Source of the DNA: Macrosoma leucophasiata
Lineage: Eukaryota > Arthropoda > Insecta > Lepidoptera > Hedylidae
Length of the DNA: 64,000 bases
Direction of reading: 5' to 3'
Assembly (NCBI GenBank): GCA_036365455.1
Contig: JAWQUS010000022.1
Coordinates: forward strand, 7,998,001 to 8,062,000
The translations under genes and the position numbers were made by a program. The stretch's first letter is position 1. Every line of letters starts with the position of its first letter. Below are positions 27,352-54,983 of this stretch, in pieces. The notes under the pieces are model-generated. The model was given only the letters and a program-made list of their open reading frames with translations, ran no database searches and was not told where the DNA came from.

Positions 27352-27440
27352 TCAGGACATGTAAGTAGTATTGTGGGCGTGTCTTTCCATAAGCCGACAT
27401 GTTACTCGTGTTTGTGGGCATCTGTAGGTGGGTACTCGAG
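27352..27440 (-). CDS. Gene 1 exon 4 (terminal)
   Basis: The acceptor CTTTATTTCATCATCAG precedes codons that, after the split ACT, read RVPTYRCPQTRV, CRLMERHAH and stop. Phase 1 matches exon 3. TR..TYR and RVT.R echo gene 2 exon 4. An ATTAAA hexamer lies downstream on this strand near 27280. Other frames are open here too, hence moderate confidence. Confidence 0.45.
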
Positions 27441-30400
27441 CTGATGATGAAATAAAGCACAGGTTGGCAGAAGAAAGTCATATATTGCCAAAGATCCGCC
27501 CATTCGATTACTTCCGGCAGGGAAGAACGGGCAAGACACCCTTCGGACCGGGAAACCACATTTACCAGGATACGATACTACTACTATCACTAGTCTTCTG
27601 CACATTTGATTCAGAACTACCCGCGTTATATCATTTTAATATCACTGACGTTCACTGTTCTAACTGGCAGCATAACTGCCCTATAATAATTCGATTCAAC
27701 TGTGTGACTGTGACTCATCGACTGTTACTCTATGTCTGACCGTCATGAACTATTTTCTAGCCTTTATAAACCCGATATCGGCTAGTAACTATCCCCTCTA
27801 AGATAACAATTTCAAGAACCTACGCCGACAGTGGCGCCACCTAGAATTCTCTATTGAACAATCTACCCTAGTCATAATTAGGTTACGTCTCCGATAAACT
27901 AGATGGCGCTAGTAGTCACATTTAGGTTCCAATCCGACATATATATAATTATCAACGAAACATCTAATTAAACTCCCCGTCGTTCCTATTTAGGGAAATA
28001 GAATACTCGAGGTCAAAGGTTAAAAAAACTTTATATTCGCAATTTTCATCTAAACGGTATATGTTTCAACGTAAAATAATCTTAGAAATATTAGATCTCA
28101 TACACGTAGAACTAAAGTAGTATCGTTTTATATTATTTTGCATTAACACATGCTTGTGAAATATATTTTATTTTTAAAGAAAAATGGAAAGAAAAATTTG
28201 ACTTCAGGCGAGACTCGAACTCGCGACCTACTGGGAATCTAGTCCAGCCGCTCTTCCAATTGAGCTACTGAAGTCCTGCCCGATTCGTCAAATCTTTCCT
28301 TCACATCTATTGCATTGCTTTATGGTAGCAGCAGCGCCATCTATTGCCAACTATGCTAGTTAGGCAACCGATATAATAGACTTTTCAGTTTATTGAATAT
28401 CGTAAAGAAGTCGCTTTACCCTTAATAATTGTTTTATATTATTTCGCATTAACACATGCTTGTGAAATATATTTTATTTTTAAAGAAAAATGGAAAGAAA
28501 AATTTGACTTCAGGCGAGACTCTAGCGGCTGGACTAGCTATTCCCAGTAGGCCGCGAGTTCGAGTCTCGCCTGAAGTCAAAATTTTCTTTCCATTTTTCT
28601 TTAGTAGTATCGTTACAAACCGCAGTGGTTTTTAGATGCACTGTAATTATTTGCCAAGTGTATGTTCTTTCTATTTGATCATAAAGCAACTCGGCCCACC
28701 GGTCGCGGCGGACGATGGGGGAGTAGCCATAGCGTTTATTACCGATGCAAAACAGTCTGTCTGTCAGAAATACGTGTGACACACACTCACACAGAGATGG
28801 AGATAGATGACATCTCGGCGCACTTGTATGCGCTCGTATAAGTATATTTATATACCTATATATTTATACATTTTTGTACGTTTTATTTTATATTATGTAA
28901 TATTTTATGTAATTTGTTGGTATTCAAGTACGTATAATTATTATTTTTTTTGTTTTTGTTTAGTTATATATATAATATAATAATATATAATATAATAATA
29001 TGTAACATTTATTTGCACTTATGTATCGGTTTATTCCTAGTAAGTATTTATTATATTGATATAGACTTTCAGGACTGATATCCGTGTCTCACCGAGTAGT
29101 TTCCAGTTGAAAACCAGCGTCAGGCTCCGGCTTGACATTTTGCTGAACTGGGAACTATTTGGTGCAGCCGTGAGATCTTGTTTTATTTTTCTACTGTTAC
29201 AAGGTACCTATTTTTTTTTATATTAATAGTGTTCTTTCTTTTTTTTGTGTTAAAATGTCAATGCTTTCATAAATGTTGTTTTTTTTTGTCGTACCAACCT
29301 ACTTGTTTTTTAAATGTTTTTTTTTCTATTGTTTTTCTATGCATTATTTGATAGGCTGCGCCAATAAATGTTTTTTCTTCTTCTTCTTCTTCACATTACA
29401 AAAATCGTCTATTACCATGAAACTCACACCTTGACTTTATCAAAATACTCATACAATTTCTCGTACACTATTAAATATCTGGGCGATAGGCGTAGGACGA
29501 TTTGGTCTTGTACTTTGACAGAGGGGAAAGCCTGCATATGGCTACTCCCCCTCCGGCCTGCGGCGGCCAGCGACATGTATTGCCCTATGTATTTGATAAA
29601 TAAAATTAAAAAAAGAACAGACCATAGACACAAATCCGGATCCGAATTTATGTCGCTTGGAACGTCTACATTGATCGGACTGAAATATCTATTAAAAAAT
29701 ATATTCAAATCATTTATTTCAAACTAGCTGTGCCCGCAACTTCGTCCGCGTCAGAATGTATGATTGTTCAGTATTTACCCGGACGAAGTCGTGGGCGCAG
29801 CTAGTATTAAAGTAGCCTTAGTTACTCCTTATTACATCAGCTATCTGCCAGTGAAAGTCCCGTCAAAATCGGTCTAGCCGTTCCCAAGATTAGCTCCGCC
29901 AAACAGACAGACAGACAAAAATTGACAAAAATGTTGTTTTGGTATAATATATGTACCGTGTATACATACAGTCGCATTTAGTAAAAAGCGGATATTTTAA
30001 TATTACAAACAGACACTCCAATTTTATTTATTTGTATAGATTGGTCAACAAGGACACTTTTGCATTGTCGGGTTATACTACCTAGAGAGAATGACGATTT
30101 AATAATTATATTTAACCGATATGGAAATAATCAAATTTTTCAATTCCTTCATAGAAGAAAAAGAAAAATCTGTTCGTCATAATCATAGTCATACACTTAG
30201 CAGAGTTCCAAGTGCAAGCACTACTGAGAAGAACTCCGCTACCCAACAAACTCAGCGTGTTGCTCTTTTGTCAAAACCTTAGATTTAATACAAATATTAT
30301 TAAATAAAATAAAGATAATGTGAACGTCCATGGCATATAAATATTTGCATATAAACACATACGCAAATACCCATCAACAGCTTAATATCGTGATAGAAAA

Positions 30401-33400
30401 TAACACCCGTAAATCACAACAGACCAGTCCCCACAATCAGCACCCGTTCACGAGTATGACGCATGTGGCAGCCATTGCTCTCCTCGACCATTTTGAAGGG
30501 CAGTGAGCAACCCGTCACACGACGCCGCCGAAGGCAACACCATTAAAGTGAGCATGACTGTTATGATTACCAGTGCAAAATTGTTCAGTTTCTATTTAGT
30601 TTAATATGTGCTTTTGATTATTATTAGTGGTTATACTCTAGGTTAGTTTAAAAAAAAAATATGTAAAAGTGCTCTCCAGGAGCCTAATTATATGAAATAA
30701 ATGAATAAACTGAATAAACTGAGTGCATAGTGCTATATACATTATGCTAATGTTTGGCCATGTCTCACGGCTGCACCAAATGGATTCCATTTCAGCATTA
30801 TGCTGATTAGGTTAGGATCCTACTGCAGAACTATTTCGTTCATCCAGATATGCTGCAAACCTTATTTTTACGCATATTTATAATTTAGATAATATACAGG
30901 GTTAAATATATCTAACGCATAAATCGTCAAAGGTGAGTTAGGTACGTTAAGACTAACAACTTTTGTTCTATGACTTTTGCCAAAACGCAGTACATCTCAA
31001 GATAAGAAATAAAATCGTTTCAAATGGGACTTCTATCAATTGTTAGCACTACGTTTTATAGGTATATTTTTACATAGGTACAGACGTTAGCTGTTTACGT
31101 GACGTGAAGTTAAGAAGTATTAGAACTGCAAATTCTTTTTTTTTTTTGTATGGTAAAAAAAATATTCAATTAGAAAAAGTTGTTCAACAAAAGTGTTAGG
31201 CTTGATGAGCCTAAGCATCCCCTTAAGAATTATGCGCTGGTTACAAATAACCCTGTATATCCACTAGGTTGCCTATCAAAATTTGATCGCAATATGGGGG
31301 AATATGAACTTACTTTTTCTTTGTTTTTGTTAATTTTCTGCGGGGGTGAAGATGGTGCTTGCCTTTTTTTATTCGTCGGGTATGTTTGACCAGCTGAAAA
31401 ATTAAAAATAAAACAAATTATTGTCCGTTCGTAATATATAACGTACGTGATTTCACGCCTGTAATCCCCGAACGGGTAGGCAGAGGTTAATGCATGTACC
31501 TTTTCAAGCATAAAACACCCACGATTTCACGAATCGCCGGTTAAGTTTTGGCCCATGTAACAAGTGGCGGCGGGCACATTACCAAAGTCTGAGGTACGGG
31601 AAAACTTTTTTTTATACGTAATGGAAGTGGAAAACAAGCATGCAGTTCACATTGCTTTTAAGTGATGACTGCAGCCTATAGACACCTACACAAAGACCAA
31701 GGTCAAAATGCAGATGCGTTACCACTCCTGAGACCTAAGGTGTTATACCCCTGTGCCGGGAATTACAGGGCCGTACATTACCACCTGACCGGAACACGAT
31801 AGTGCTGAACACTATCATTTAGCGGCAAGTATAGCGGTAATGCGGTAGTGCCCAGGCCCGCAAGCTCGATCCCTGGAGATCTACCACAAGTAGAACCAGA
31901 ATCAGTTTATCGAAGCTGTTACCAAACCCGCGTTATTATATTTACTACCACCCAATTAGAATGGTTTGACCGCATTTGTTCGGTAGACTGACTTCACTTG
32001 TCCTGCGATTCTCTTACGCTAGTAGGCGGTGGGTCATCACGTCCCGACCCTTCGGTAGACTGTCTTCACTAACGCTAGTAGGCGGTGGGTCATCACGTCC
32101 CGACCCTTCGGTAGACTGTCTTCACTAACGCTAGTAGGCGGTGGGTCATCACGTCCCGACCCTTCGGTAGACTGACTTCACTTACGCTAGTAGGCGGTGG
32201 GTCATCATGACCCGACCCTTCGGTAGACTGACTTCACTTACGCTAGTAGGCGGTGGGTCATCACGTCCCGACCCTTCGGTAGACTAACTTCACTTACGCT
32301 AGTAGGCGGTGGGTCATCACGTCCCGATCCTTCGGTAGACTGACTTCACTAACGCTAGTAGGCGGTGGATCATCACGTCCCGAACCTTCGGTAGACTGAC
32401 TTCACTAGTCCTGCGATTCTCTTACGCTAGTAGGCGGTGGGTCATCACGTCCCGACCCTTCGGTAGACTAACTTCACTTACGCTAGTAGGCGGTGGATCA
32501 TCACGTCCCGAACCTTCGGTAGACTGACTTCACTAGTCCTGCGATTCTCTTACGCTAGTAGGCGGTGGGTCATCACGTCCCGACCCTTCGGTAGACTGAC
32601 TTCACTGGTCCTGCGATTCTCCTACACTAGTAGGCGGTGGGTCATCATGTCCCGACCCCTTCAAGCATTACAGCTAAATAAAGAAAACTTACTCAGATTT
32701 AATGTGTTGGTCTGTGGTCCCAATTCGAACATGACCTGGAAGTCCGCATGGTTGCCGAAAGCGAAGCCGAAACCAACTCGCGAGTCTGTGCCTAAAAAAA
32801 TTATAAGTAGATTTCGATAAAAAATATGTAAGAATATGTAAGATGTAAGAAAGAGGCTTTGTGTGAATGAAAGTATCGGTGTAAAAATGAAAAAAGGCAT
32901 GCTCCGATGGTTCGGGCATATAGAAAGAATGTCACATGAGCGAATGACTAAACAGATACAATACGAATGTGGATGGTTGCAGAGGCAGAGGAAGACCAAG
33001 ACTGACCTACCATGACCAAATAGGTCGAGTTCTGTCTGATGGTGGGGTCAAAAGTCTTAGGAATTGGCGTGCATGTATGAAGAGAATTATGAAGGTAGAC
33101 GAGGCACGAGAGGTTTGTCAGGACCGGGATATCTGGCGTCCTACTCTCTCTGCCTACCCCGTTAGGGACCTGGCGTGAAGATACATACATACGTAGATAA
33201 AAAATACTCATAGTAGAGTTCTAGTGTAAAGACTCGAGGGCGTAGACATCACCGCATTACCGTATCTATCTGTCGCCAATTTGTTTTTATGAAATAAATA
33301 GAACATACACTTGGCAAATAATAACAGTGCATCTAAAAAACCACAGAGGTTTGTAACGATACTATTTTATTTCTTTATTACTGGTGGTAGAGCTCCAGTG

Positions 33401-36400
33401 ACGGAGCTCGTGGGCGTAGGCACCACCGCATTACCTAATATACTTGCCGCTAAATGGTAGCGAATTGGACGGTCTCAAGACGGGCCGCCTGCATGAGTCC
33501 ATTAAATAAAGAGAATAAGAAGATAAAGAGAGAAGAAGAGAATATTTTCTGGAAGTTTTTCTTTTATGTAATGAAAAAGCAAATTACAGGGCCGTACATT
33601 ACCGCCTGACCGGAACACGATAGTGGTGAACACTACCGTAATGCCGTAGTGTCTACGGCCACATCGCGGACACTCGGCCAAAATTCCATACAAACACTTA
33701 ATTTGGTCTCTATTACGCAAACACTAGACAGTGACGTGTTTTATGACGTGATTTACACGTGCACCTGTGTGCGTAGCACGTAGAAAATACCAACCGTCGC
33801 CCATAAGAGGGGAGGAGGTTGGGTGAGATATTTCCATTGTGACATAACATACCTTTCTTAATCGGCGGTATATTGGAATAAGCGACGGACAGCAACGAAG
33901 GCAACTCCTCGGGTATGATCACTGAGCAGGCCCCTGAAATCACAAATATAATTAAATTAAAAACAGGAGTTTTGGCCGGAACCTTGAAGGAGGCGTGTGG
34001 TGCTCTTAGTTTATTTCATTTTCTCGGTTTGAGTTATCTATACAAATAAATAAAATTGGAGTGTCTGTTTGTAATATACAAATAACCGCTTTTTACTAAA
34101 TGCATATGTATGTATACGGTACATGTACCAAAACAACATTTTTTACAATTTTTGTCTATTTGTCTGTCTGTTTGTTCCCGCTAATCTCGGACCGATTTTG
34201 ACGGGACTTTCACTGGCAGATTATGTAATAAGGAGTAACTTAGGCTACTTTTATACTATCTGCGCCCACGACTTCGTCTGTGTAGATACTGAAAAATCAC
34301 GCGGACGAAGTCGCGGGCAGAGCTAGTATTAAATAAAGTAGGTGGCATTTTGTTTGATATAGGTTTATTACAGTGCCCGTGTATAGTGAAATAGAATAAC
34401 AGTGCGAAAACACGTCTATTTAAGTTGCCTCCAAAACTTCATTGTAAATGTTCTGGCAAAGTAACCATCCCTTTACTCTGATTACTGACTGTGACTCTGA
34501 CTGACTGACTGACTCTGACTTTTACTGCTTTAACGCTGCTTATTACGAATACGAAATATCGTTTTACTTGACACTGGCAATATGCGTTAAAGCGATGCCA
34601 TTATATACAAAAAAAGGAGCAATTTCTCTTCTTCTATACCTATACTTTTTATTAATCTGCCTCAGTAGCGTAGTGGTAGCAGGCCACTACTACTACGCTG
34701 GAGGTCCTGGGTTCGATTCCCGGGTAAGGAGTTATCAGAGATCAGAGATAACGGTTTTAAAATCCTTTGCCTCTGGTTCTACCATTTTCTGGAAGTTTCC
34801 CAGTACCTCGGAGTTTGGTAATGTGCCCGGAGATGGCAACAGGCTCGCCACCTGTTACATGGGCCAAAACGTAACCGGCGAATCGTGGGTGTTTGCTATA
34901 TGCTTGAATGCATGAATTTACAACCACTTATTTGGAACACGATAGTGCTGAACACTACCATTTCGCGGCAGATAGATTAGGTAATGCGGTGGTGCCTACG
35001 CCCTCCACTCCCTACACTGGAATTGGCAGTAAAAACATCAAAACTACATTTATGTTCAAATCACAAAAAAATATATGGAATCCGAATGTAGATGGCTGCA
35101 GAGGCCCAGGAAGACCAAGATTGACCATAAACAAATAGGTCGACTACTGTCTGAGGTAGGTCAAAAGTCATAAGAATAGGCGTGCATGTATGAAGAGAAT
35201 AATGAATGAAGATGAAGTACGGGTGGTGTGTCAGGACCGGGATATCTGGCGCTCCACACTCCCTGCCTACTCAGTAAGCGACTTGTATTGAAGATACATA
35301 TTATGAAGAAAAAAATCGCTTGGATAATGTATAACAATGTGAATTACAAACTTGTTCGTCAGATTTAGATAAAGGAGATATATATTTTTTTATGTCAAAG
35401 GATTGACAGACACGCAGACGGGCCACCTGATGGAAAGTGGTCACCGTCGCCTATGAACATTTGCAACACCAGGGGAGTCGCCAACGCGCTGTCAGCCCCG
35501 AAGGACGCTTTTGACGCCATTTTTGAAGAACCCCATATTGTAGCACCGAGGGAACACCTCAGAGGGAAGTTCATTCCACAATTTACACGTTCTGGGCAAA
35601 AATGAACGTGAGAACCGCACCGTTGAACATTGCCAAATGTCCAGTCGGTGAGGGTGAAACTTATCTCTTCGGCGGGTAGTGCGGTGTAGGAAAAGAGACG
35701 GTGGCACCATGTCGAACAGTTCGACAGAGCACTCGCCATTGTAGAGACGGTATAAAACGCATAGACTCCCAACGTCTCTGCGCAGGCTCAGATGTTCGAG
35801 CCTGTCAGTAAGTCCTGGGTCGTTAACAATACGAACGGCGCGTCTTTGTAGGGAGTCGAGTGGACCAAGTTGGTATTTGGGGGCTCCCGCCCACAAATGA
35901 GAGCAGTATTCCAGATGGAGCCGCACTTATAAAGCTGTAAAAGCTGCCCCGATGTGAAATACTGCCTCGCTTTGTTAAGCACCCCTAGTTTTCTGGATGC
36001 CAACTTGGTCTTACACTCAATGTGACTCCTAAATTGCATTTCGTTCGATATGTCAACGCCCAGGATACCGATACTCTTACCAACGGCGAGCGGAGTGCCC
36101 TGGAACTGTGGTGCTACAACGAATGGGGTTTTTTTTGCGGTGAACGCGCAAACTTGTGTCTGCGCGTTCACCGCTAAAAAAGATACCTGGCATCCTGTTA
36201 CCTCCACCAAATCTAAGATTTCGATTGTTTTCACTTTACGTCCTTTCTAAGTATTTCATAGTAGTAGAGTAGTCCATTCTTGAGTAATTTTTCACCTTCA
36301 TTTTTGAGAGAATCAAACGTTTTTGAAAAGGACGCGGCATCATGGGTCAAGAGCGTGTCAGATATTCTGAGAGGGTGTAAAATGTGCCCAAACATTGCTC

Positions 36401-39400
36401 CTATCCGAAATTCAGACGATTCGGCAGATGAGTAAGATCATAGCGACCTTTCAATTTTTTTAAGTGCTATCCTTCGGGCGCGGCCCTTAATACAAACTTT
36501 AGTTTTAGTGGAGGTAACCAATAGGGTGCAAGGTATCTCCCATATCTTAAACCGATGCGCTCGAGTTAATACAAAAGTAGCATCCTGGACTATAATAATT
36601 GGTGCATCGAGCTCTATATCTTGAGCTCAACCACCAGTAAGAATCAGAAACTCATTTATTCATTTAGGGTGACAGGCACCTCTTATGACACGTCAAAAAC
36701 AAACAAAATAAATTAAAGTGAATAACAATTGATATACATGTCAAACAAGATAAAAAATATATGTAAAGTCAAGAATATCACTAAGATAAAACTAAATGTA
36801 ATAAACGAATGTAAAAAGTATATCAGTAGAATGTCTCATTTCCCCTTTACAAACTGATAACAAAGAGTAAAAAGAAAAGAAAAAGAGTCATCCTTTGTCA
36901 TTCACCGGCAAAGTTCCAAAGGATGATCTGAGAAAAATATGCCAGAAAAAACTCAGTCGGCTCTTTTAAAAAAAACAAGCTGGTGTTCACCAGCTCTATC
37001 AGTAAACACAACGATGTATACTTCAAGATAATAAGCAATAATGACTTCGTAATGTATTACATAATCCAACCGCACTGTTACCCTGACCCGAGTTGGGAAA
37101 TGTACACATTTATTGCGTGTGTTTAACTTGGGACATCTTTACCTGCGAGAAAACAGTAAAGTCCACCTTTTTAAGGTTCCGTATATCATGTACGTCTGTC
37201 TGTCTTTCATAGATTTTCGCCGAAAGTACTGCTCTGTAATTTCCGCCACAGACGCCACCTTAGGAGTGGAAACCGATCTGCATTTTGACCTTGGTCTTTC
37301 TATGTGTGTCTATAGGCTCAAACTCAAACTACAAAATTTATTTAATCACTTGGAAATAATCGAATTTGCTTGAGATAGGTCAAATTACAAACATAAAATT
37401 AAGGCGAATAACAACTGGTACGTTGATTAATATGTCAAAGTAAACAAAATATAATAAATAATGGTCCAAAAATACTTAATAATTAAAATACATAGGTATC
37501 AATAGAATGTTCCATACTCTCTTTTACAAACGGCAAGATAAGACTATACAAAAACATATGGCACATTCTTTGTCATTCACTGGCAGTTCCAAAGCCCACA
37601 TTACTGAGAAAAAATTCTGCGAAAACAAAAACTCAGTAGGGTCTTTTCAAAATATTATATATTATGTTCCACAATATGACACTTATAACTATGTTTTACA
37701 ATATCAAGAACAATGCACATTCATTTCACAAAATTATTGTATCAAGTCTTGTAGGGCTAAAGCAGCATTTGTCCAGGCATCTTTGCAGTTATCACTTAAC
37801 ATTAATGTGAACGGCATGGTTGTTTGCCACTTCATTTACATAAAAAAAACTAGACTGCCTACACTACACGTTTATGTAAGACATAAACGTGCAACATCAG
37901 CAAGAAATAATGCACATCGAGCTTATGAAAGAGACAATCGGCTAGTTTCGACTTCGTAGAGCGTTATCTCTGTTGCACACTGCCTACGTAAGCAGTTAAG
38001 CACTGACATTCCGGTATTGGTCAAAATTTGGTCAAAATGGCAGACAAACGTCATAGGTTTTTACGTGTAGAGCTCCAATGACGGAGCTCGCAGGCGTTGG
38101 CACCACCGCATTACCTAATCTATCTGCCGCTATATGGTAGTAACTTCACGCCTGTAATCCCCGAAGTAGTAGGCAGAACACCCACGATTCGCCGGTTACG
38201 TTTTGGCCCATGTAACAGATTACGAGCCTGTTGACACATCTCCGGGCACATTACCAAACTTCGAGGTACTGGAAAATTTCCAGAAAATTGAAAAATTCTA
38301 ATAGAACCAGAGATGAAGGACTTTAACACCATTATCTCTGATAGCCCCCTACCCGGAAATCGAACCCAGGACCTCAGCGTAGTAGTATTGGCCTGCTACC
38401 ACTAGGCTACTGAGGCAGTCATGTCGGTCTAAATGGTAGTGTTCAGTACTATCGTGTTCTGGTTAGATATGGTATGGCTCCGTAAAAACTATCACAGAGA
38501 CAGCAGCTAAGGGTCTCAGGGGTGGTAACGCATCTGCATTTCGACCTCTGGTTTTTGTGTAGATGTCTATAGGCTGCAGTCATCACTTAACATCAATGTG
38601 AACTGCATGCTTGTTTGCCACCTTCTCCTTTTGTCTTTCTATTAGAAAGACACAGCGACATACCTAATGACAATCTAAAGTTTATTTCTGAGAATAAATC
38701 GGAAAACCCAAAAAACACAACTTAATTCTGCATGCTTAGTAACTAAATAGCATAAAACCGGTCTTGCATATGCTTAAATGGAAACAGTTTTTTTTTTTTC
38801 GCCAAATATAACCTTTTTGGTAAACCAAGGCTGTCTACTTTCTGTGCGGTTAAGTTCAAATTAATAAATCAGTTAAGGCTTTCCGTAAACTAGGTTTAAA
38901 GTAAGTTACCATGAGTTGAAAAATAAAGAAATAGAACATCTGGTGGAAGAGCCAAATATCATCAGCCAATTTTTTTCTTGTAATGGGAGTTATAAACAAG
39001 TATGCAGTTCACATTGATGTTAAGCGATGACTACAGCCTATAGACACCCACACAAAGACCAAGGTCAAAGCAGCGTAACCACTCCTGAGGCCTAAGGTGT
39101 TATGCCTCTGTACCGGAAATTACAGGGCCGTACATTACCACCTGACCGGAACACGATAGTGCTGAATACTACCATTTAGCGGCAAGTATATTAGGTGATA
39201 TTATTTAGGTGTCCCAAGGTGAACATTCGCTCCAATGCGGTTTTTTCAGTTTTTTCAACTCCAAATTGTAGAACAAACTATGCTAAAAATAGATTTTTGG
39301 TCAGAGCTTGCAACATACATAATAAACGATATAATCACATTGACATGTTCAACTGCGAACTGTGTAATTTTACTCTATCTGTAAAAAAAGTTAATACCTA

Positions 39401-43143: not shown

Positions 43144-43452
43144 TGCCTCGGTAGCCTAGTGGTAGCAGGCCACTACTACTACGCTGAGGTCCTGGGTTCG
43201 ATTCCCGGGTAGGGGGTTATCAGAGATAATGGTGTAAAGTCCTTTATCTCTGGTTCTATTGGGATTTTTCCATTTTCTAGAAATTTCCCAGTACCTCGGA
43301 GTTTGGTAATGTGCCCGGAGATGTCAACAGGCTCGCCACCTGTTACATGGGCCAAAACGTAACCGGCGAATCGTGGGTGTTTGCATGTATTCTTGAATTG
43401 CATTTACCTCTGCCTACCCCTAAGGGGATTACACGCGTAAAATTACGTTTAC
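43144..43452 (+). mobile_element. SINE-B, full length
   Basis: GTAGGGG subtype with intact boxes A and B, ending GCGTAAAATTACGTTTACG. Confidence 0.85.
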
Positions 43453-43477
43453 GTTGTTCTATCATGTTACTATGTAA

Positions 43478-43875: not shown

Positions 43876-43879
43876 TGGA

Positions 43880-44287
43880 TACTCCTTCTACTGCTACTGT
43901 CTAGTAAAAAGGTCAATGATTTCAATATTTCTATCGTTCTCGGAGTTTGGTAATAGGATTCAATAATGAAATTAAATTAAATTATTAAAATCTTTAATAA
44001 ACTTTATCGCTGTAATATCTCAATTAGATGACCACAATTTGCAATTATAACTTTGACATTAATTAATTATAAATATTCGAATTACAATAATAATATTTTG
44101 ACATACTATTTAGTTAAGTTTATGGATATTTTACACACCATTGTAATGGTAGAATGTGATAGTGCTATAATGTTATTACCTCACCATCTATCTCACCATG
44201 TACCTACATGTACCCACTACATTCTGGTAAATAAATGATTATGATTATGATTATGAATGTGAGATGTTGACAGGAGCGGCTTAACAT
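43880..44287. other. No clear feature
   Basis: AT-rich, ending in ATTATGATTATGATTATGAA. The 61-codon frame at 44053 has no support. Confidence 0.45.
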
Positions 44288-44289
44288 AT

Positions 44290-44798
44290 AGCACACCGCG
44301 GACACTCCGCCAAAATTCCGTACAAACGCTTAATTTGGTCTCTATTACACAGACATCAATCAGTGACGTGTATTCACAGTGACAGAATCAGAATCAGAAA
44401 CTCATTTATTCATTTAGGGTGACAGGCACCTCTTATGACACGTCAAAAACAAACAAAATAAAATAAATTAAAGTGAATAACAATTGATATACATGTCAAA
44501 CGAGATAAAAAATATATGTAAAGTCAAGAATATACCCGTAACTAAGAGAAAACTAAATAATATATAATATGCTAATGTAAAATAAAAAGTATATCAGTAG
44601 AATGTCTCATTTCCCCTTTACAAACTGATAACAAAGAGTAAAAAGAAAAGAAAAAGAGTCATTCTTTGTCATTCACATATTTACACGTGCGTAGCACGTA
44701 GAGAATACCAACCGTCGCCCAATAAGAGGGGAGGTTGGGTGAGGCGGGGAAATCGGGCGGGACGTCGAAGTGTCCATTCTATACGTAGTATTATTACA
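44290..44798 (+). repeat. rep-M copy carrying rep-L
   Basis: rep-M parts 44290-44391 and 44683-44798 (ending TACGTAGTATTATTACA) enclose a reverse rep-L (44392-44682). The same composite with the same junctions occurs reversed at 49560-50092. A HEL-K starts exactly at its right edge. Confidence 0.75.
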
Positions 44799-45059
44799 TC
44801 TATATATATAAAAATGCAACCCGTTTTCCTTGGTCACGGCATCACGCGTGAATGGCTTTACCGATTTGGCTAATATTGATTTTGAATGATTTTTGTAAGT
44901 CCAGGGAATGTTTAAAAGGTAAGAAAATATGAAGAAATTGAAGGGAAATAGTGAAAACCACCATTTCATTTTCCCATACAAATAGTCCGTATCTATCAAA
45001 CCTTTGACACATGTCATATTTTTATTCTGAGGCAATACGAAGTTTGCCGGGTCAGCTAG
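44799..45059 (+). mobile_element. HEL-K Helitron, complete
   Basis: Starts TCTATATATATAAAAATGCA after A and ends TTGCCGGGTCAGCTAG before T. The left flank is rep-M TTATTACA. Confidence 0.85.
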
Positions 45060-45485
45060 TATATTATTAAATAAATTAAATACGCTTACACTCACAGCCC
45101 CACATTAGGTATAAACTAGGGTTTTCTACCCGGGTACCCGGACCCGGGTATACCCGGGTATTTGACCTTTTTGTACTCGGGTATTTTTTACTGCCAGACC
45201 CGGGTACCCGGGCACCCACTTTGGTTCGGGAATACATCAAAATCCTCGGCAAATTACAAAATTAGAAAGTAAGGTCTAAAAAATAATACGTATTAGCAAA
45301 TGTGACACACAATAAAAATAAATCTAAAGTAGGCGTAGAGTTTTTTAGAAAAATCCAGTAAGTATGAGGTTAGATTTGGTTATGTATTATGTTCTTGTTT
45401 ACGTCGCTGTGTTTTGTTTTTGTTTCGTTGGAGTTTGATTAGAAAGTTTTATTTTCATAGGTGTTGAATACTGTCTGAATGTCGA

Positions 45486-46222
45486 CAGACAAGCAAACGG
45501 GCCACCTGATGGAAATTAGTCACCGTCGCCTATGAACATTTGCAACACCAGGGGAGTTGCCAACGCGTAGCCAGCCCTGAAGGACTCTTTTGATGCCATT
45601 TTTGAAAAACCCCATATTGTAGCACCTAGGGAACACCTCAGAAAGAAGTTCGTTCCACAATTTACACGTTCTGGGCAGGAACGAAAGTGAAAACCGCACC
45701 GTTGAACACTGCCAGGTGTCCAGTCGGTGTGGGTGGAACTTCTCTCTTCGGCGGGTAGTACGGTGTAGGTAAAGAGACGGTGGCATCATGTCAAACAGTC
45801 CAGCAGAGCACTCAGCATTGTAGAGAGGGTACAACACGCACAGACTCCCAATGTCTCTGTGCAGGCTCAGATGTTCGAGCCTGTCAGTAAGTCCTGGATC
45901 GTTAACGATACGAACGGCGCGTTTTTGTAGGGAGTCAAGTGGACCAAGCTGGTATTTGGGGGCTCCCGCCCACAAATGAGAGCAGTATTCCGGATGGGGC
46001 CGCACTTGGGCCTTATAAAGCTGTAGTAGCTGCCCCGATGTGAAATACTGCCTCGCTTTGTTAAGCACATCCAACTTTTTGGATGCCAACTTGGTCTTAC
46101 ACTCAATGTGACTCCCGAATTGCACTTCGTTCGTTATGTCAACGCCCAGGATACCGATACTCTTATCAACGGCGAGCGGAATGCCCTGGAACTGTGGTGC
46201 TACAATTAATGGTTTTTTTTAG
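45486..46222 (-). pseudogene. LINE-G fragment nested in the hAT element
   Basis: A 201-codon frame with QFGSHIECKTKLASKKLDVL, YCSHLWAGAPKYQLGPLDSL, FHPHRLDTWQCSTVRFSLSF and LPRTCKLWNELLSEVFPRCY. It is 5' truncated at nearly the same point as 35390-36180 (the TAKK codons), so the two may derive from similarly truncated sources. Confidence 0.8.
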
Positions 46223-46288
46223 CGAATGAATGAAAAAAATGGATCTAGTGGACGTATAAAATTTTACTAAACGATGGTTTACTTTTAG

Positions 46289-46660
46289 TTGGCAAAATGG
46301 ATAGATCCGTATCTGGAGTGTGAAAATATATTTAAAAAATACAGAATAAGGAATCAGTACAGTGTGCAATATGCCCAAAATATAATCTCTTATATAGGTT
46401 ATTCAACAAACGTTTCATTAAAACATTTAGATAAAGTAAGTTTACATAAAACAAAAATCGACAAAACAGAACTTTACGTCCGAAAAAGAAGTGACATTGA
46501 CATCGTTTTCTCAACCTGAATCAGAACAAAGTTTAAGCCTAGTTCCTAAAAGACCGCGGATAACAATTTTTTTCTTCTTTCTACTAAAATTTCCGAATTT
46601 GTTGCACGCTTGGTTGCGCAAGACGGTATTTCCACTCAAACTGTTTAACTGTGTGATTAT
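46289..46660 (+). pseudogene. hAT transposase N-terminus remnant (BED finger)
   Basis: Reading gives NIISYIGYSTN...LKHLDKVSLH, resembling the ..ISYKGGSTSNLKRHL...H part of a BED zinc finger with its cysteines damaged. PKRPRIT follows, then in another frame ARLVAQDGISTQTV, like the segment after the BED finger in hAT transposases. There are frameshifts, and the catalytic and dimerisation regions are missing. Confidence 0.55.
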
Positions 46661-47244
46661 TGTATATATATATATATAAATGTACTCTAAGTTAAGGTGA
46701 CTTATTGACATACTACACACACTCTTTCGTAATATACAACATAATTATAAGAAAATTGTATCTTTTTCTGTATTAATTGTAAATACCCGGGTACCCGGGT
46801 ATATCCGGGTATATGCAAAAATAATACCCGATACCCGGGTATTAAAAAATGTCGGGTATGCGAAAACCCCAGTATAAACCTGTGTCGTGGGTGCCGTTGT
46901 ACACAAACAACACATACACAAACACCCGGACCCGAAACACATATCTGTAGGCCATACAAATATTTGTCCCGGTGCGGGGATCGAACCCGCGACCCTTCGA
47001 ATCAAACGGTCATCTCACACCGCTGGCCTAACCGGGTCGTCAAATATATTCTCTGCCTATAGTCCAGGGTGTGCAATGCACACGGGCGCCGCGTCTCCCT
47101 GCATCTGCATTACATAAACAGGTTGACCAACTTTACTATCATTTGCTAAACAACACGCCACAAATAAATACTCACTTAACAAACAACGATTCACAAAACC
47201 ATAATTTCACAAACCTATAATTCCCTAAAATTGCTCATTTTATA

Positions 47245-47790
47245 AATAATTAGCTGGAGTCCGCGACTTTGTCTGCATTCACACAATCTAAATCGCCGGT
47301 TAAAAACCAGATGAACGTATGTACAATTTTGTCAATGTTGAGAAAATGACCTCCATTTCTGTTCAGTTAATTGCGTTTTCTCAACATTGACAAAATTGTA
47401 GATACGTTCATCTGGTTTTTAACCGGCGAAATCTAAACTAATATTATAAATAGGTAATATTTTTTGTTTGTTTGTTTGTAATGAATGGGCTCAATAACTA
47501 CTGGACCGATTTTAAAAATTATTTCACTATTTAAAAGCTACATTATCCACGGGTAACATAGACTATATTTTATTTTGAATAAAATAGGGTCCTTAAGATT
47601 TGGGTTTTTCAGACACAAGGTGTAAAAAATCAACTAGAAAAGTTACTTATATTGCGTACGCTGCCTAAACTATAAAAGATATCGAGGAAGACTTTAGGCT
47701 ATATCTATGTATAATCATCACGCTAAGACGAATAGGAGAGGATAGGCAACATTGCACCGCGCGAAGCCGGGGCGGGCCGCTAGTATCTTT
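47245..47790. mobile_element. Helitron-like ends enclosing a foldback
   Basis: The left side TTAGCTGGAGTCCGCGACTT looks like a reversed LEP1 3' end. The right part (from about 47440) contains CTACTGGACCGATTTTAAAA and ends AGCCGGGGCGGGCCGCTAG before T, a forward LEP1-type element. A hairpin lies at 47294-47428. Confidence 0.6.
47294..47428. repeat. 53-bp-arm inverted repeat
   Basis: Arms 47294-47346 and 47376-47428 (CGCCGGTTAAAAACCAGATG and its reverse) pair with one mismatch around a 29-nt loop. Confidence 0.9.
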
Positions 47791-48216
47791 ATAAATGTAG
47801 CCTGTGTTAATTCTAGGTACCTAACCTAGAATTATAAATTAGAATATTTGTATGAAAATAACGTTGTGTTTAACTACTTTTTAAGAAGATGACATGTTTC
47901 AAGGCTGCACTATTTATGTATGATTATTTGCCATCTTTTTGACATAATTTAAGGCCCTTGGCCTTCTCACTACAAGGCAATTTGCTATGAACCCATAAAA
48001 AAATAAAGTATGTCAAAATCGTTTAGTAATTTTAGTACCTATGTATCGAATGATTATTTTTTGCCGTGAGAAATTATTAGACAATAGTATTTTATCTCGA
48101 CTTATTGACAATGACAATTCCCACAGTGAATTTTAGTTGACTAATTGCAATTCCCTTTGGTAAAGTTTTAATTCGATGTTTGGTTCGGTAAGGAGCGGCC
48201 ATTTTGTGAGTTAGTG

Positions 48217-48259
48217 ATGGCGGGAAAATTTGTTTGTGTCGCCATTTTGTTTTTCAAAT
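48217..48259 (+). CDS. Gene 2 exon 1
   Basis: The ATG follows GGAGCGGCCATTTTGTGAGT and encodes MAGKFVCVAILFFK. Donor AAAT|GTAAGT, phase 1, completing TGT (Cys) with exon 2. GCCATTTTG occurs on both sides of the start codon, a motif common near insect promoters. Confidence 0.6.
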
Positions 48260-51200
48260 GTAAGTGATTTTTTTAACAGTTTTCGTTTCGATAAAATACC
48301 ACCCGGTTGAATAAATATAACGCCTGGAACGAAAAACGCGTGTAAAACTCAGAATGTACAAAAAAAATGCTTAATTTTACGATTAATTTATTTGCGAAAA
48401 TTATTTTATACCTACTGGCTGACCCGGCAAAAGCCATTGCCGCATAAATTTGACTGGTGGTAGAGCTCCAGTGACGGAGCTCGCGGGCGTAGGCACCATC
48501 GCATTACCTAATATACTTGCCGCTAAATTGTAGTGTTCGGTTCCTATCATGTTCCGGTAATGTACGGCCATGTAATTTTCGGCACAGAGGCATAACACTT
48601 AAGCCTCAGGAGTGGCAACGTATCTGCATTTTGATCTCTGGTCATTGTGTGGGTGTCTATAGGCTGCAGTCATCACTTAACATCAAAATGAACTGCATGC
48701 TTGTTTGCCACTTTTATTACATAAAAAAAACATAATTTTGAAAGATTCAAGCAATAGTAGGGGAGCCCAAGAGGGGATTTTCGGAGTTACTCGAACGCGT
48801 CAGAAGATATGGGAGATACCTTGCGCCTGATTGAGTACCTCCACCAAATCTTAAAGTTTATTTAAAGGGAAACGCACGTAGGGCAAATCTTTTAAAAGAT
48901 ACAAATGTCTGCCACGATCTTACTTCACCTCCGAATCGTCTGATTTTTTTTCATTTTATTCTTATTTAATGAAAAGGAACTTTTGACCACAAATGTTCAT
49001 TGTTTTATATTATTTCGCATTAACACATGCTTGTGAAATATATTTTATTTTTAAAGAAAAATGGAAAGAAAAATTTGACTTCAGGCGAGACTCGAACTCG
49101 CGACCTACTGGGAATCTAGTCCAGCCGCTCTTCCAATTGAGCTACTGAAGTCCTGCCCGATTTGTCAAATCTTTCCTTCACATCTATTGCATTGCTTTAT
49201 GGTAGCAGCAGCGCCATCTATTACCAACTAATAAACAAAGCAATAGATGTGAAGGAAAGATTTGACAAATCGGTCAGGGCTTCAGTAGCTCAATTGGAAG
49301 AGCGGCTGGACTAGATTCCCAGTAGGTCGCGAGTTCGAGTCTCGCCTGAAGTCAAATTTTTCTTTCCATTTTTCTTTAAAAATAAAACAAATGTTCATGC
49401 CAGTTCCATCGTTGTCTGAATTTTGAATAGGAGCTTTGTTTTAACACCTTTTTAACCCTCTTAGAATATCTGGACGATGTTGATGCTGTGCGCTTTTCGG
49501 AAAGATACGATTCTTACAAAAATGGAGGTGACAATTTCATTACCATCTAACCGGAACACGATAGCAGAGAATATGTAATAATACTACGTATAGAATGGAC
49601 ACTTCGACGTCCCGCCCGATTTGCCCGCCTCACCCAACCTCCTCCCCTCTAATGGGCGACGGTTGGAATTTTCTACGTGCTACGCACACAGGTGCACGTG
49701 TAAATATGTGAATGACAAAGAATGACTCTTTTTCTTTTCTTTTCACTCTTTGTTATCAGTTTGTAAAGGGGAAATGAGACATTCTACTGATATACTTTTT
49801 ATTTTACATTAGCATATTATATATTATTTAGTTTTATCTTAGTTACGAGTATATTCTTGACTTTACATATATTTTTTATCTCGTTTGACATGTATATCAA
49901 TTGTTGTTCACTTTAATTTATTTTATTTTGTTTGTTTTTGACGTGTCATAAGAGGTGCCTGTCACCCTAAATGAATAAATGAGTTTCTGATTCTGATTCT
50001 GTCACTGTGAATACACGTCACTGATTGATGTCTGTGTAATAGAGACCAAATTAAGCGTTTGTACGGAATTTTGGCGGAGTGTCCGCGGTGTGACGATAGT
50101 GCTGAATCCTACTACTATTTGGCGGCAGAAATATGAAGTGATCCAGTGGAGCCTACATCGTCAGACTCCGAAACTGGAAGTCTACCTAACTCTACCGACA
50201 GTTCGCTCAAAATGAGAGTGTTAAAACTATTTAACACCATTTTAAATGACCCGGTTAGTCCAGCGGTGTGAGATGTCCGTTTGATTCGAAGGGTCGCGGG
50301 TTCGATCCCGGGACAAATATTTGTATGGCCTACAGATATTAGTTTCGGGTCTGGGTGTTTGTTGTGTATGTGTTGTATGTGTACAACGGCACCCACGACA
50401 CAGGTTTATACCTACTGTGGGGCTGTGAGCGTACGCGTATTTTATTTTTTTAAAAAGGTCGTACTGTCTGATGGTGGGTTCAAAAGTCTTAGGAATCGGA
50501 GTCTATAATATGTATGAAGGTAACGATGAAGGTAGATGAGGCTCTGGAGGTGTGTCAGGACGGGGATGTCTGGCACTTAACACTCTCTGCCTTCCTCTTA
50601 GGGACCTGGCGTGAAGATATATACCTTTTTAAAACTTTTCGCAGGTTTTCCAACAACTGGACTATTCCTGGTGGTACCAGAAGACGTCGGCACTGGCTTC
50701 GCAGCCATTTATGGATTCACACCTCGCATAGTTTTTGGTAAGTCATCATAAAATCAGTAATGTGGTCCATCAAACTATGACTAGAGCGAACGTTGCACTG
50801 CACCTTTTTTATGTAATGTAAGTGGCAAACAAGTATGCAGTTCACATTGATGTTAAGTGTACAGGTGCTGCGTCGGGATTCTCACCAAAAGGAATTGAAA
50901 TTCACTATTTTTATGTAATAAAAGTGGCAAACAAAGATACAGTTTACATTGATGTTAAGTGATGACTGCAGCCTATAGACACACACACAACGACCAGAGG
51001 GCAAAATACAGATACGTTGCCACTTCTGGGGCTTAAGGTGTAATGCCTTTGTGCCGGAAATTACAGAGCCGTACATTACCACCTGACCGGAACACGATAG
51101 TGCTGAACACTACCATTTAGTGGGAAGTATATCGCATATGCCTCATATTTGAAGACGAATTTCACTTTAAGAGCCGAGTGGTTGCAGTCGCGTCATAAAG

Positions 51201-54200
51201 TTTTTACTAGTGGAAGAGCTCCAGTGACGGAGCTCGCGGGCGTAGGCACCACCGCATTACCTAATTTACTTGCCGCTAAATGGTAGTTTTCAGCACTATC
51301 GTGTTCCGGTCAGGTGGTACGGCCCTGTATTTTCCGGCACTGAGCCATAACACCTAAGACCTCAGGAGTAGTAACGTATCTTGCCCTCTGGTCGTTGTGT
51401 GGGTCTCTATAGGCTGCAGTCATTACTTAACATCAATGTGAACTGCATGCTTGTTTGCCACTTCTTCGTCCGCGTAGATGCGTGGATGCGCGCAACAGCT
51501 AGTTATTAATAAATAAAAATCTCTTTTCCGGGCAGCTGCTGGAGCACAGACCTCAGCGGTCGCGGGTTCAACTCCCGCCTGAAGACAAATTTCTCATTGC
51601 ATTTTTCTTTAAAAAAAAATATCATCCAAATCCATTAAAATAAAATAAATAAAATTATTTCTCAGGTCAAGACCATCGCTTCGGGTTCGGATTTCGATTC
51701 GGCAATCACGCTGATCTCCAGATTATGTACGAATTTGGACCGCAGACATCTACGAAGCCTCTTCAACCGATACGTAATTATATTTCTGTACTAGCTGACC
51801 CGGAAAACGTCGTTCTGTCAGAGAATATGTAATAATACTACGTATAGAATGGACACTCAGACGTCCCGCCCAATTTCCTCGCTTTTAAAAAAAGGTTGCA
51901 ATTCGCACATGTTAGCCTTAAAAAAAATTCATAAGAGACACTGTATAATTTGACGACTCGGTTAGTCCAGCGGTGTGAAACCATCGTTTGATTCGAAGGG
52001 TCGCGGGTTCGATCCCCGCACCGGGACAAATATTTGTATGGCCTGCAGATATTTGTTTCGGGTCTGGGTGTTTGTGTATGTGTTGTATGTGTACAACGGC
52101 ACCCACGACACAGTTTTATACCTACCGTGGGGCTATGAGTGTAAGCGTATTTTATTATAATGCTTCGTATCTCATTTTCTTATGAATTTATATGTCTGTT
52201 TCTTTTTATTGTCGGGTTTTCGTTTCATCGACTTTCAAATCACAAAGAAAGAAAAATAATTATTTTTTTGGCACGCACACAACATCGAATAATAAAAATA
52301 TTAAAAACAAGTTTAAACATTTTTACATATTTGGTTGTGGAAAGCCAAAAAAAACGGCACACACCTCAGCTGATTGCTGCAATAGTGGCTGCAGCGCTGA
52401 TATTCTGGTGGGTCCAAAGATGCTTAAGGTTTCACTTCAGAACATTATCATTATAAAGCGCAATACACACTGGCATAGAGCAACACGGGCCACCGGCCGT
52501 GACGGACCGGAGGGGAGTAGCCATATGAAGGCTTTCTCCTCTCCTAATATAAAAATAATCATGGCAACTGGCACCCGCGCGTGTTGCCCGTTGACATGTT
52601 GGCGGCTTGCGGACGTACCGACGTACGCTCAGTTGTAGGCGTGAGAGAAACGTCTCACCTTTGTGATTGAAACATTAGCATCTGAAACACTTAACTGTTC
52701 CGAATCTTAGTATGCATCATTTCGAACATTTGGAACAGTGCGTCAAAGATCTACTGTCGCGAAAGTCCAAAACAAACAACTCGGCTCATAAAAGTAAAAT
52801 AATGCAAACGAAAAACGCCATATATATAATTATAAAAATATTATTCGTCTTAGAAACGCCATAGTCGTCATTATCACGTGCATAAGGTACTTTAAAGGCG
52901 CAACGGAATAAAGTAACAAAATATCATCTCATTTGGTATCCCACTCTCACTTGCTTAATATTGTATTGTTATCTCGCTCTCACGCTTCGGTAGCTGATTC
53001 AGATTCAAATGTTTTAAATGTCAAGTGATAGGTAGCGGTCATGCGGTCACACGCAATCACTCAAGCGACATGAACGTGCTAAACAGAGAGCAATGCATTT
53101 GAAATATTATTGGTATTCCAATCTTTGGGAACATCGAAATGTTTCGGAACAGTGAATCAGAACAGTAAAGAGTTACACACGTGTACAACCGCCAACTTAC
53201 CCGCCGACATAGGTCGGCGGCCCGGCGGGCTCAGTGTGTATTGTGCTTTATAGCATAAAAATAGCTTCTTTCTTGGAGCAAAGGGACCTTTTTCGAGACA
53301 GAAAGTCTAAGAAACTAAAATCATAGCTTAAAGCATAAAAATTCTAAAATCATATGAGCACTAGATTTTTTTAATCCGTCTATATTTGATAGATTGGAAA
53401 GTTCAGACTTTCGATTGTAATTTAATTTGAAAATTGCATGTTTTGAATTACTTTGGCTTTACGTAACTTTGGATTGGTGAAATGGGGCTAGTTTTGGTAG
53501 TAACTGCACTTGGGGTATTTATTTTTATGTGATGAAATTGAAGTGGCAAGCAAGCGTGCAGTTCACATTGATGTTAAGTGATGACTGCAGGCTATTGACA
53601 CACAAAAAGACCAAGGTCAAAATCCACATGCGTGACCATTCCTGAGGCCTAAGGTGTTATGCCTCTTTGCCGGAAATTACAGGGCCGTACATAAGCACCC
53701 GACCGGAACACGATAGTGCTGAACACTACCATTTAACGGCAGATAGGTAGGTTTTGCGGTGGTGCCTACGCACGCGAGCTCCGTCACTGGAGCTCTACCA
53801 CCAGTAGCGTAATTTTTCTTTTAGTTTAATTTTAGAGTCGCCATTAAAACATAATTTTATGCAACCCAATATAAACCCAGATGGGGACCGTGGGCGTCCC
53901 TTACTTAACCAGGTTTTTTTGCAGACAATAGCAAATAAGCCAAAGGAAAATTAGGACAAAGAAATTTATGCAAAACGAGTTATGCCAAAGCATAATAGGA
54001 ACAACAACAATAGGTCCACTGATAATTATGGCTATAGATGTTATGCCGAATAATAAAATATGACTAAAGGACAAGTTCCACGTTGGGCCCGCACCTTGTA
54101 CACTATATCAAAAGATAGAAAAATACGTAGAATCATGGAAAAATACTCAACAAAATAATTTAAATGTTTTTTTTGTCGGAATGTTTTCTTTTTGTCATGT

Positions 54201-54983
54201 TTGTATGACAACAATATGTCACCATATTGCTACGACACTCTTGTTTTTGAAATTTGAATAGCTGAAAGTGATTTAGAATTTTAAGCTTCTTCTCTCAATA
54301 TAGCGTAGAAGGTGCAGGTGGCCCGGTGGCGGGCCAGGTCACCGGGCTAGATGGGATACAGCCCAAGCTCCATACATTTTGGAACGTCTCCTTAATGCAT
54401 CCCGAGTAGGGATGAGTAAGTGGGAAAAATATATAGATATATGTACATATATCGTATCGATAGTTTTCAAATCTATCGAACTATATCGAAAAAAATAAAA
54501 TATCGATATTTTGATATATCGATATATTTTGCCCATTATTCTATCTGTCTTGCTGTTTGGTTTGATATCGATTTTACCTGAAAACCTTTTGTTTTAGCTT
54601 TTGCGTCAGGCTACTGGACCTCCAAATGTAAGATGTTAAAAAATATATCAATTTTGATATCCGAAAAAAAATATCGAACATCGATATATCGCGAAGAAAA
54701 ATATGGACATTTTGATATATCGATTTTTTTACCATCCTTAATCCCTCAGGCCACCAGAAAAACATGACAATTGATTTCTTATTGTTCTCGAACCCAATCA
54801 GGTCCATTGCAGCTTCAGGCACTAATCCTGACCCCATACCCTTTTTCAGGAACAAGATCAACTTACCGGCAAAGAGTGACCAGACGTCGTCCCCTTCTAG
54901 ACTTTCTACTTCGGACTGGCATCATCAAAGAGACATCGTACCAATACGATGTAGTTCATGAACTGGATGAACCTCGACGATGA
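48217..54983 (+). CDS. Gene 2: small secreted protein, four exons, 125 aa (unknown family)
   Basis: The coding sequence joins 48217-48259, 50645-50737, 51666-51773 and 54850-54983 (378 nt, ending TGA). All introns are phase 1 with GT/AG borders. Residues 1-20 (MAGKFVCVAILFFKCFPTTG) form a hydrophobic signal peptide, so secretion is likely. The body reads LFLVVPEDVGTGFAAIYGFT, FGFGFRFGNHADLQIMYEFG, PQTSTKPLQPIR, then a basic C-terminus RVTRRRPLLDFLLRTGIIKE ending VVHELDEPRR. Exons 2-3 match gene 1 in length class, phase and the GFGFxFGNHADxQ and GPQTxT motifs. AATAAA lies two bases after the stop and again at 55006. Function is unknown. A chance ORF is unlikely because phases and homology agree across exons. 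Confidence 0.7.
48452..48730 (+). repeat. rep-A copy with probable target duplication
   Basis: Full length with an internal deletion. CATAAATTTGA (48443-48453) and CATAATTTTGA (48731-48741) flank it, 10 of 11 matching. This is the best evidence that rep-A is a retroposon. Confidence 0.8.
48775..48965 (+). repeat. rep-Q copy
   Basis: ATATGGGAGATACCTTGCGC, TACCTCCACCAAATCTTAAA and TCCGAATCGTCTGATTTT. Reversed pieces lie in 36181-36560. Confidence 0.45.
49077..49152 (-). tRNA. tRNA-like sequence, left arm
   Basis: Perfect acceptor, D and T stems. The 9-nt anticodon loop is as in 1565-1640. Confidence 0.5.
49278..49353 (+). tRNA. tRNA-like sequence, right arm
   Basis: As the left arm but with GGCTTCAG at the 5' side, giving one acceptor mismatch. 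Confidence 0.45.
49560..50092 (-). repeat. rep-M copy carrying rep-L
   Basis: Reverse of the composite at 44290-44798, with the same junctions (GTAAATATGTGAATGACAAA and TCACTGTGAATACACGTCAC). rep-L occupies 49707-50005 in forward sense, ending AATAAATGAGTTTCTGATTC. Confidence 0.75.
50092..50190 (-). repeat. rep-A 5' part, degenerate
   Basis: ACGATAGTGCTGAATCCTAC to AACTGGAAGTCTACCTAAC. Confidence 0.5.
50249..50449 (+). mobile_element. SINE-C copy
   Basis: The tRNA-like head has a small deletion after GGGTTCGATCC. It ends GCGTATTTTATTTTTTT. Confidence 0.8.
50452..50625 (+). pseudogene. RTE-like LINE 3' fragment
   Basis: CTGTCTGATGGTGGGTTCAA to CTTAGGGACCTGGCGTGAAG. It ends about 20 bp before gene 2 exon 2. 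Confidence 0.65.
50645..50737 (+). CDS. Gene 2 exon 2
   Basis: Acceptor TTAAAACTTTTCGCAG and donor TTTTTG|GTAAGT, 93 nt, phase 1 at both ends. Encodes FPTTGLFLVVPEDVGTGFAA and IYGFTPRIVF. The surrounding longer open frame in another phase comes from the RTE scrap. Confidence 0.75.
50803..50860 (-). repeat. rep-A 3' scrap
   Basis: TTTTTTATGTAATGTAAGTG to ACATTGATGTTAAGTG. Confidence 0.5.
50911..51135 (-). repeat. rep-A copy lacking the 5' end
   Basis: Reverse copy ending ACCATTTAGTGGGAAGTATA. Confidence 0.7.
51208..51466 (+). repeat. rep-A copy
   Basis: From CTAGTGGAAGAGCTCCAGTG to GCTTGTTTGCCACTTC. The A-tail is replaced by a Helitron 3' scrap (51467-51505, GCGCGCAACAGCTAG). Confidence 0.75.
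51520..51605 (+). repeat. Diverged tRNA-FB relative
   Basis: GCGGGTTCAACTCCCGCCTG has a T-arm and acceptor layout like tRNA-FB, and TGCATTTTTCTTTAAAA matches its downstream sequence. No palindrome is seen. Confidence 0.45.
51666..51773 (+). CDS. Gene 2 exon 3
   Basis: Acceptor TTATTTCTCAG and donor CCGATAC|GTAATT, 108 nt, phase 1 at both ends. Encodes QDHRFGFGFRFGNHADLQIM and YEFGPQTSTKPLQPI. It is the most conserved exon between the two genes. Confidence 0.8.
51792..51890 (-). repeat. Helitron scrap joined to rep-M scrap
   Basis: CTAGCTGACCCGGAAAACGT (HEL-K 3' end reversed), then CAGAGAATATGTAATAATAC to CGTCCCGCCCAATTTCC (rep-M). Confidence 0.5.
51951..52157 (+). mobile_element. SINE-C copy
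   Basis: Near complete. The tRNA-like head is GACTCGGTTAGTCCAGCGGT with the T arm intact, ending GTAAGCGTATTTTATTA. Confidence 0.85.
52245..52425 (-). mobile_element. rep-N copy
   Basis: Parallel to 24065-24275: GGCACGCACACAACATCGAA, ACATATTTGGTTGTGG and GCGCTGATATTCTGGTGG. Confidence 0.5.
52452..53254. mobile_element. TIR element of about 800 bp (MITE-like, unknown superfamily)
   Basis: Left end TATAAAGCGCAATACACACT and right end AGTGTGTATTGTGCTTTATA are inverted repeats with one mismatch. The inner right side is GC-rich (GGTCGGCGGCCCGGCGGGCT). A short rep-R-like segment lies at 52497-52545. No transposase frame. Confidence 0.6.
53520..53808 (-). repeat. rep-A copy, near full length
   Basis: Ends GGAGCTCTACCACCAGT. 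Confidence 0.8.
54087..54316. mobile_element. MITE-S, second copy
   Basis: Left end GGGCCCGCACCTTGTACACT; right end CAATATAGCGTAGAAGGTGC is a decayed inverted partner. The interior (ATTTAAATGTTTTTTTTGTC, GTATGACAACAATATGTCAC) matches the 17738-18350 copy in reverse. Confidence 0.6.
54413..54745. mobile_element. Small hAT-like element with TATCGATA repeats
   Basis: The ends TAGGGATGAGTA and TACCATCCTTA are roughly inverted, and both halves carry many ATCGATATATCGATA-like palindromes. Flanking ATCCC on both sides hints at an old duplication. No coding. Confidence 0.45.
54850..54983 (+). CDS. Gene 2 exon 4 (terminal)
   Basis: Acceptor CCCCATACCCTTTTTCAG. The split codon CGA is followed by TRSTYRQRVTRRRPLLDFLL, RTGIIKETSYQYDVVHELDE, PRR and TGA. 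Phase 1 fits exon 3. An alternative frame is also open for part of the exon but would break the phase. Confidence 0.65.

Follow-up and report, generated by a model that had tools for sequence, protein, structure and literature searches.

A head-to-head pair of snustorr snarlik family genes in Macrosoma leucophasiata: an snsl orthologue and a divergent, core-only paralogue

The founding paper on the insect gene snustorr snarlik (snsl) is said to be that of Zuber et al. (2018, Eur J Cell Biol). In the fly literature, the Snsl protein is described as extracellular and as sitting at the tips of the pore canals, a position that depends on the ABC transporter Snu; it is one of the proteins required for the envelope, the outer cuticle layer that makes the fly waterproof, and snsl mutants are reported to lose water, to die, and to let dye enter (PMC6980720, PMC6440989, PMC7423992, PMC7886070). 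No description of a lepidopteran snsl paralogue was found among the titles and abstract openings of the papers listed in literature searches. Here, we analyzed a window of 64,000 nucleotides from the lepidopteran Macrosoma leucophasiata (contig JAWQUS010000022.1, positions 7,998,001 to 8,062,000) in which two related genes, A on the reverse strand and B on the forward strand, lie head to head with 6,085 bases (6.1 kb) between their start codons. We consider it quite probable that this locus is a head-to-head pair of snsl family genes, in which gene A is an ordinary cuticle envelope orthologue and gene B is a lepidopteran, core-only paralogue that would act at the cuticle surface.

Exon structure and orthology of gene A

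The corrected gene A has five exons, which run from 42131 down to 26532 on the reverse strand, encode 205 amino acids, and are separated by introns of phases 1, 1, 1, and 0. Exon 1 (42131-42092) supplies the start codon and a hydrophobic N-terminus, aligns with Epargyreus snsl, and is followed by a phase-1 intron. Exon 2 (33933-33853; IIPEELPSLLSVAYSNIPPIKK) and exon 3 (32791-32693), the latter carrying the family core GTDSRVGFGFAFGNHADFQVMFELGPQTNT, were placed by exon joining and tblastn, and each again precedes a phase-1 intron. These three exons agree with the initial annotation, which had then closed the gene with a fourth exon at 27440-27352 on the same strand, giving a product of 102 amino acids. 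That proposed exon is an open frame behind an AG, but its 29 residues matched none of 196 relatives (blastp, E up to 10), while a control of 29 residues from the true exon 4 and the start of exon 5 matched 62 of the 196 under the same threshold. The alignment of the 102-amino-acid model with six lepidopteran orthologues stops at residues 70 to 77, with 81.6 to 87.8% identity. That last exon is not supported: its frame is open, but the relatives do not match it.

The missing exons were located by tblastn of 84 relatives against the window. Exon 4 (31393-31314, reverse strand) has GT-AG borders, precedes a phase-0 intron, and was matched by Euphydryas P0014 with 61.5% identity (E = 8e-6). Exon 5 (26849-26532, reverse strand), which encodes a YLQEW part, the tail ITDDLSNVDLD, and the stop, was matched by the same protein with 58.7% identity (E = 1.6e-35). 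Neither had been part of the earlier model. A further version, in which exon 4 was read through to a stop, was dropped because exon 5 matched relatives. The 205-amino-acid product aligns end to end with the Epargyreus clarus protein named "snsl" (P0114), with 168 of 209 columns identical (80%), and its end-to-end identity with six lepidopterans (Epargyreus, Parnassius, Vanessa, Bombyx, Achroia, and Plutella) is 70 to 80%. Corrected in this way, gene A provides the genome with a full snsl reading frame. About 650 bases of its third intron (32009-32658) are a minisatellite with units of 56 and 72 bases.

Two complete four-exon frames, of 102 and 125 residues, with the same exon count and with phase 1 at every intron, had originally been proposed. 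Only the frame of gene B (125 amino acids) is retained as described, and the exon counts differ, with five exons in gene A versus four in gene B. Phase 1 was recovered at all three introns of gene B and at the first three of gene A, whereas the fourth intron of gene A is in phase 0. At the end of gene A, reasoning from matching exon numbers and phases consequently breaks down.

Homology searches recovered lepidopteran relatives of both proteins and placed Drosophila Snsl in the family. A 100-amino-acid part of A gave 78 matches at E values up to 10 (80 candidates), and those named by organism were all insects. A 13-sequence profile gave 390 matches from 3,102 candidates, and the best 120 of these 390 were listed; among the matches listed were D. 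melanogaster Q9VR45 ("snustorr snarlik") and D. busckii "CG2837", together with records named snsl in Battus, Epargyreus, Maniola, Periplaneta, and several flies. Across the sequence and profile searches, the relatives found span Odonata to Diptera. A is 43% identical to D. melanogaster Snsl (P0174) over A residues 3 to 130 (E = 3e-30), and the forward primer for D. suzukii snsl printed in PMC7423992, which we translated, reads VELGPQ, as in the family core.

Two C-terminal motifs were followed through the family. The first, WLxxW, takes the form YLQEW in A; the pattern occurs in 18 of 20 lepidopteran A proteins and in 24 of 25 proteins of other insects, a count that includes one loose match (Homalodisca). 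By eye, the two lepidopteran A proteins that miss it have the near matches FLQNW (Ostrinia P0113) and YLINW (Euphydryas P0014, before the scanned part). The second, ITxDLxxVxLD, takes the form ITDDLSNVDLD in A and occurs in 18 of 20 lepidopteran A proteins; since it was found in only 4 of the 25 others, all of them flies, this end motif does not define the whole Snsl family.

Judged by its sequence, gene A is an orthologue of Drosophila snsl, and its role can be transferred from the fly work by orthology. A would then be a secreted epidermal protein that reaches the pore canal tips in a Snu-dependent manner, as in Drosophila, and, by analogy with the fly, it would be needed to form the envelope, the cuticle layer that prevents loss of water and the entry of foreign compounds. 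The family is accordingly not the undescribed one that it had first been taken for, being known across insects and including D. melanogaster Snsl. The label "lineage-specific" suits gene B, whose seven relatives found are all Lepidoptera; it does not suit gene A, with relatives from Odonata to Diptera.

Gene B and the homology of the pair

Gene B comprises four exons on the forward strand, from 48217 to 54983, which when joined across three phase-1 GT-AG introns encode 125 amino acids. Exon 1 (48217-48259) aligns with Achroia P0001 from residue 1. Exon 2 (50645-50737; LFLVVPEDVGTGFAAIYGFTPRIVF) was matched in tblastn by P0001, P0002, P0003, and P0006, and exon 3 (51666-51773), which holds the core GQDHRFGFGFRFGNHADLQIMYEFGPQTST, was placed by exon joining and tblastn. 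Exon 4 (54850-54983) encodes a basic tail typical of B, which ends near EPR before the stop and is matched in Anticarsia, Achroia, Phthorimaea, and Cydia. The exons, borders, and length of gene B stand as initially proposed, and its product aligns with proteins from seven further genera of Lepidoptera.

The description of the pair as paralogous, spliced, small, and divergent was likewise borne out by the joined exons, by the opposite strands, and by the alignment of A (205 amino acids) with B, in which 32 of 74 residues are identical over the alignable part (E = 4e-18). In the exon 3 core, 21 of 30 residues are identical, in agreement with an earlier count of about 20. Given these two figures, the homology of A and B holds without the exon count argument. 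Both first exons had been said to encode signal peptides, in keeping with which the N-termini of A and B are hydrophobic (Kyte-Doolittle maxima of 2.99 and 2.55, respectively, in an 11-residue window); the proteins of both genes are probably secreted.

Introns 1 to 3 are in the same phase in both genes, and intron 2 falls at the same alignment position. A phase-1 intron lies immediately before the core in both genes. Similarity is lost exactly at this border in 19 of 78 relatives (many are reading frames on short contigs), and 2 more break after KKG. Its shared position in the two genes and the breaks seen in relatives make this border look ancestral.

The window also contains repeats and mobile element-like sequences. 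A 9-base unit, TGTTGGTGG, is repeated about 99 times at 3791-4685, and the array has several open frames, on both strands. Eight tRNA-Ser-like matches (1564-1833, 23014-23090, 28199-28275, 49076-49354, 51955-52028, and 55500-55576) include some in the introns of A and B; several lie inside near-identical repeated stretches, so they are probably tRNA-derived SINE copies rather than tRNA genes. Open frames resembling pieces of LINE-type reverse transcriptases were seen by eye at 25543-26349, 35492-36246, and 45520-46218 on the reverse strand and at 19441-19725 on the forward strand; one of these is just downstream of gene A, and two are within or beside the A/B pair.

Divergence and proposed role of gene B

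B retains the core GFGFxxG.xADxQ...GPQ with its invariant columns, and it is altered at eight sites that are conserved in A and in other insects, which argues against a binding site identical to that of Snsl. WLxxW was found in 0 of 8 B proteins, as was ITxDLxxVxLD (0 of 8), with three of the eight records being short. Where A has these C-terminal parts, B carries a short basic tail peculiar to it, which ends near EPR. Without the WLxxW part, B is best described as a divergent paralogue and not as a full Snsl. If B descends from an ordinary snsl gene, the sequences support the loss of WLxxW well and that of the end motif less well. In the same six genera, core identity to the respective window gene is 61.8 to 74.0% for B versus 82.4 to 87.5% for A (with A and B taken from two different species in Cydia), showing that, at the sequence level, B changes faster than A.

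The main alternative for such a protein is that it is secreted but has left the cuticle, its core having been repurposed elsewhere, for example, in the eggshell, silk, seminal fluid, or midgut lining. The faster change of B, its eight altered sites, and the missing WLxxW would all suit a move of this kind, but the motif GFGFxFG.HADxQ...GPQ has been retained. We regard a role outside the cuticle as a serious possibility, if somewhat short of an even chance.

A Pfam search with B and six family proteins returned no family above the cutoff, and a weak match of MPM1 to D. melanogaster Snsl (E = 0.55) was discarded; the best hit of B in a sequence search of the PDB had an E value of 0.43. AlphaFold models of Achroia P0001, a relative of B, and of Epargyreus P0114, a relative of A, were poor (pTM of 0.26 and 0.23). 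Both place a short helix ahead of a core folded as a two-strand hairpin, and both have a helical N-terminus compatible with a signal peptide. Since the models are poor overall, the hairpin is only suggested.

Returning to action at the cuticle surface, the reading that we favor, we propose that the core hairpin has a binding partner in the pore canal or in the envelope as it forms, and that assembly or transport falls to the C-terminal half of Snsl. B appears to have kept the hydrophobic N-terminus and the core of about 30 residues, and not the C-terminal half with WLxxW. We infer that secretion takes B, too, to the surface of the cuticle, that the core common to both proteins would give it an Snsl-like binding site there, and that, without the C-terminal half, it would be freed from, or able to limit, the assembly step performed by A. 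A more specific and distinctly speculative version is that B represents a lepidopteran core-only Snsl class that modifies the envelope, for example, in scales, by competing with or capping full-length Snsl at the pore canals. A protein with the core but without the C-terminal half offers a natural way to separate what the two halves of Snsl do, and, if B acts in the cuticle, it becomes a candidate for the peculiarity of lepidopteran surfaces.

Origin of gene B and comparison with known Snsl proteins

A phmmer search with B gave 6 matches from 11 candidates, in Achroia, Phthorimaea, Cydia, Vanessa, Euphydryas, and Choristoneura (E = 1e-40 to 3e-22), and a seventh relative, from Anticarsia, was among the matches listed for the 13-sequence profile. 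None of the seven carries a function-type name. The searches with B depend on shared short words and the profile matches are the best 120 of 390, so further relatives of B may exist. No B was seen by these word-based searches in Bombyx, Papilio, Spodoptera, or Plutella, in all four of which A was listed, and this is not readable as loss. Likewise, no B from outside Lepidoptera was among the matches listed for the B, A-part, and profile searches.

B would most simply have arisen when snsl duplicated in tandem in the stem lineage of Lepidoptera, a timing that we infer. In a tree of 53 chosen proteins (28 lepidopteran and 25 other) over 78 core columns, all 8 B proteins group as a single clade (UFBoot 100), whose stem measures 1.7 substitutions per site. 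Lepidopteran and other proteins were separated with a UFBoot value of 94, and lepidopteran A and the rest with 85. These supports are the ones that the Newick string assigns to the splits; the display after re-rooting gave 64 and 85. Some other branches contradict accepted insect relationships, so the tree resolves little. A tree constrained to unite lepidopteran A and B reached a slightly better likelihood than the nominally unconstrained tree, and the best of the set, which indicates that the tree search was noisy. The F of the core FGNHAD, found in 20 of 20 lepidopteran A proteins, in 8 of 8 B proteins, and in 2 of 25 others, is common to A and B and speaks for a lepidopteran duplication.

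B could instead be older than Lepidoptera and have been lost or missed in other insects. Its long stem is compatible with such an age, and the AU test did not reject trees that put B outside Holometabola (P = 0.113), outside everything except Odonata (P = 0.312), or outside lepidopteran A plus Diptera (P = 0.151). However, the best trees unite B with Lepidoptera, the constrained tree has the best likelihood, the core F is common to lepidopteran A and B, and the matches listed hold no B from other insects. We consider the greater age unlikely.

A and B records lie on contigs of equal listed size in five of seven species (Achroia, Vanessa, Euphydryas, Choristoneura, and Anticarsia), which suggests that the two genes are linked there, with the listed sizes giving neither distance nor strand. 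Second A-type proteins on equal-sized contigs were also seen in Arctia (P0058/P0122), Euphydryas (P0014/P0091), and Pectinophora (P0102/P0105), suggesting that the snsl locus duplicates readily, or repeatedly, in Lepidoptera.

Two weaker explanations can be set aside. Decay of B toward a pseudogene would fit its faster change and its records in few species, three of them short, but the frame and splice sites are intact here, B is 54 to 65% identical over most of its length to proteins of four genera, and its tail is conserved, which makes decay very improbable. That the locus holds a pair of genes with four exons each, from a lineage-specific and so far undescribed family of secreted proteins, as gene B and the open frame behind an AG at 27440-27352 might suggest, has almost no probability left, given that none of the 196 relatives matches that frame, the matches of both skipped exons to orthologues, and the membership of Drosophila Snsl in the family.

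Among known proteins, those closest to B are its uncharacterized orthologues Achroia P0001 (LOC131850486), Phthorimaea P0002 (NE865_13017), Cydia fagiglandana P0003, and Anticarsia P0181 (LOC142984885), which have the tail in common with it and the identity over most of its length given above. The lepidopteran snsl orthologues of Epargyreus (P0114), Parnassius (P0085), Vanessa (P0099), and Bombyx (P0109) differ from A as species ordinarily do. Drosophila Snsl shares with A a common order of N-terminus, IVPxELPS...IPPIKKG, core, KRQ, WLxxW, and end motif, with 59.2% identity over 76 core columns; at 255 amino acids, it has a longer C-terminal half than A (205 amino acids). Compared with B, Drosophila Snsl is 33.8% identical over 77 core columns, and B, at 125 amino acids, is without WLxxW and the end motif.
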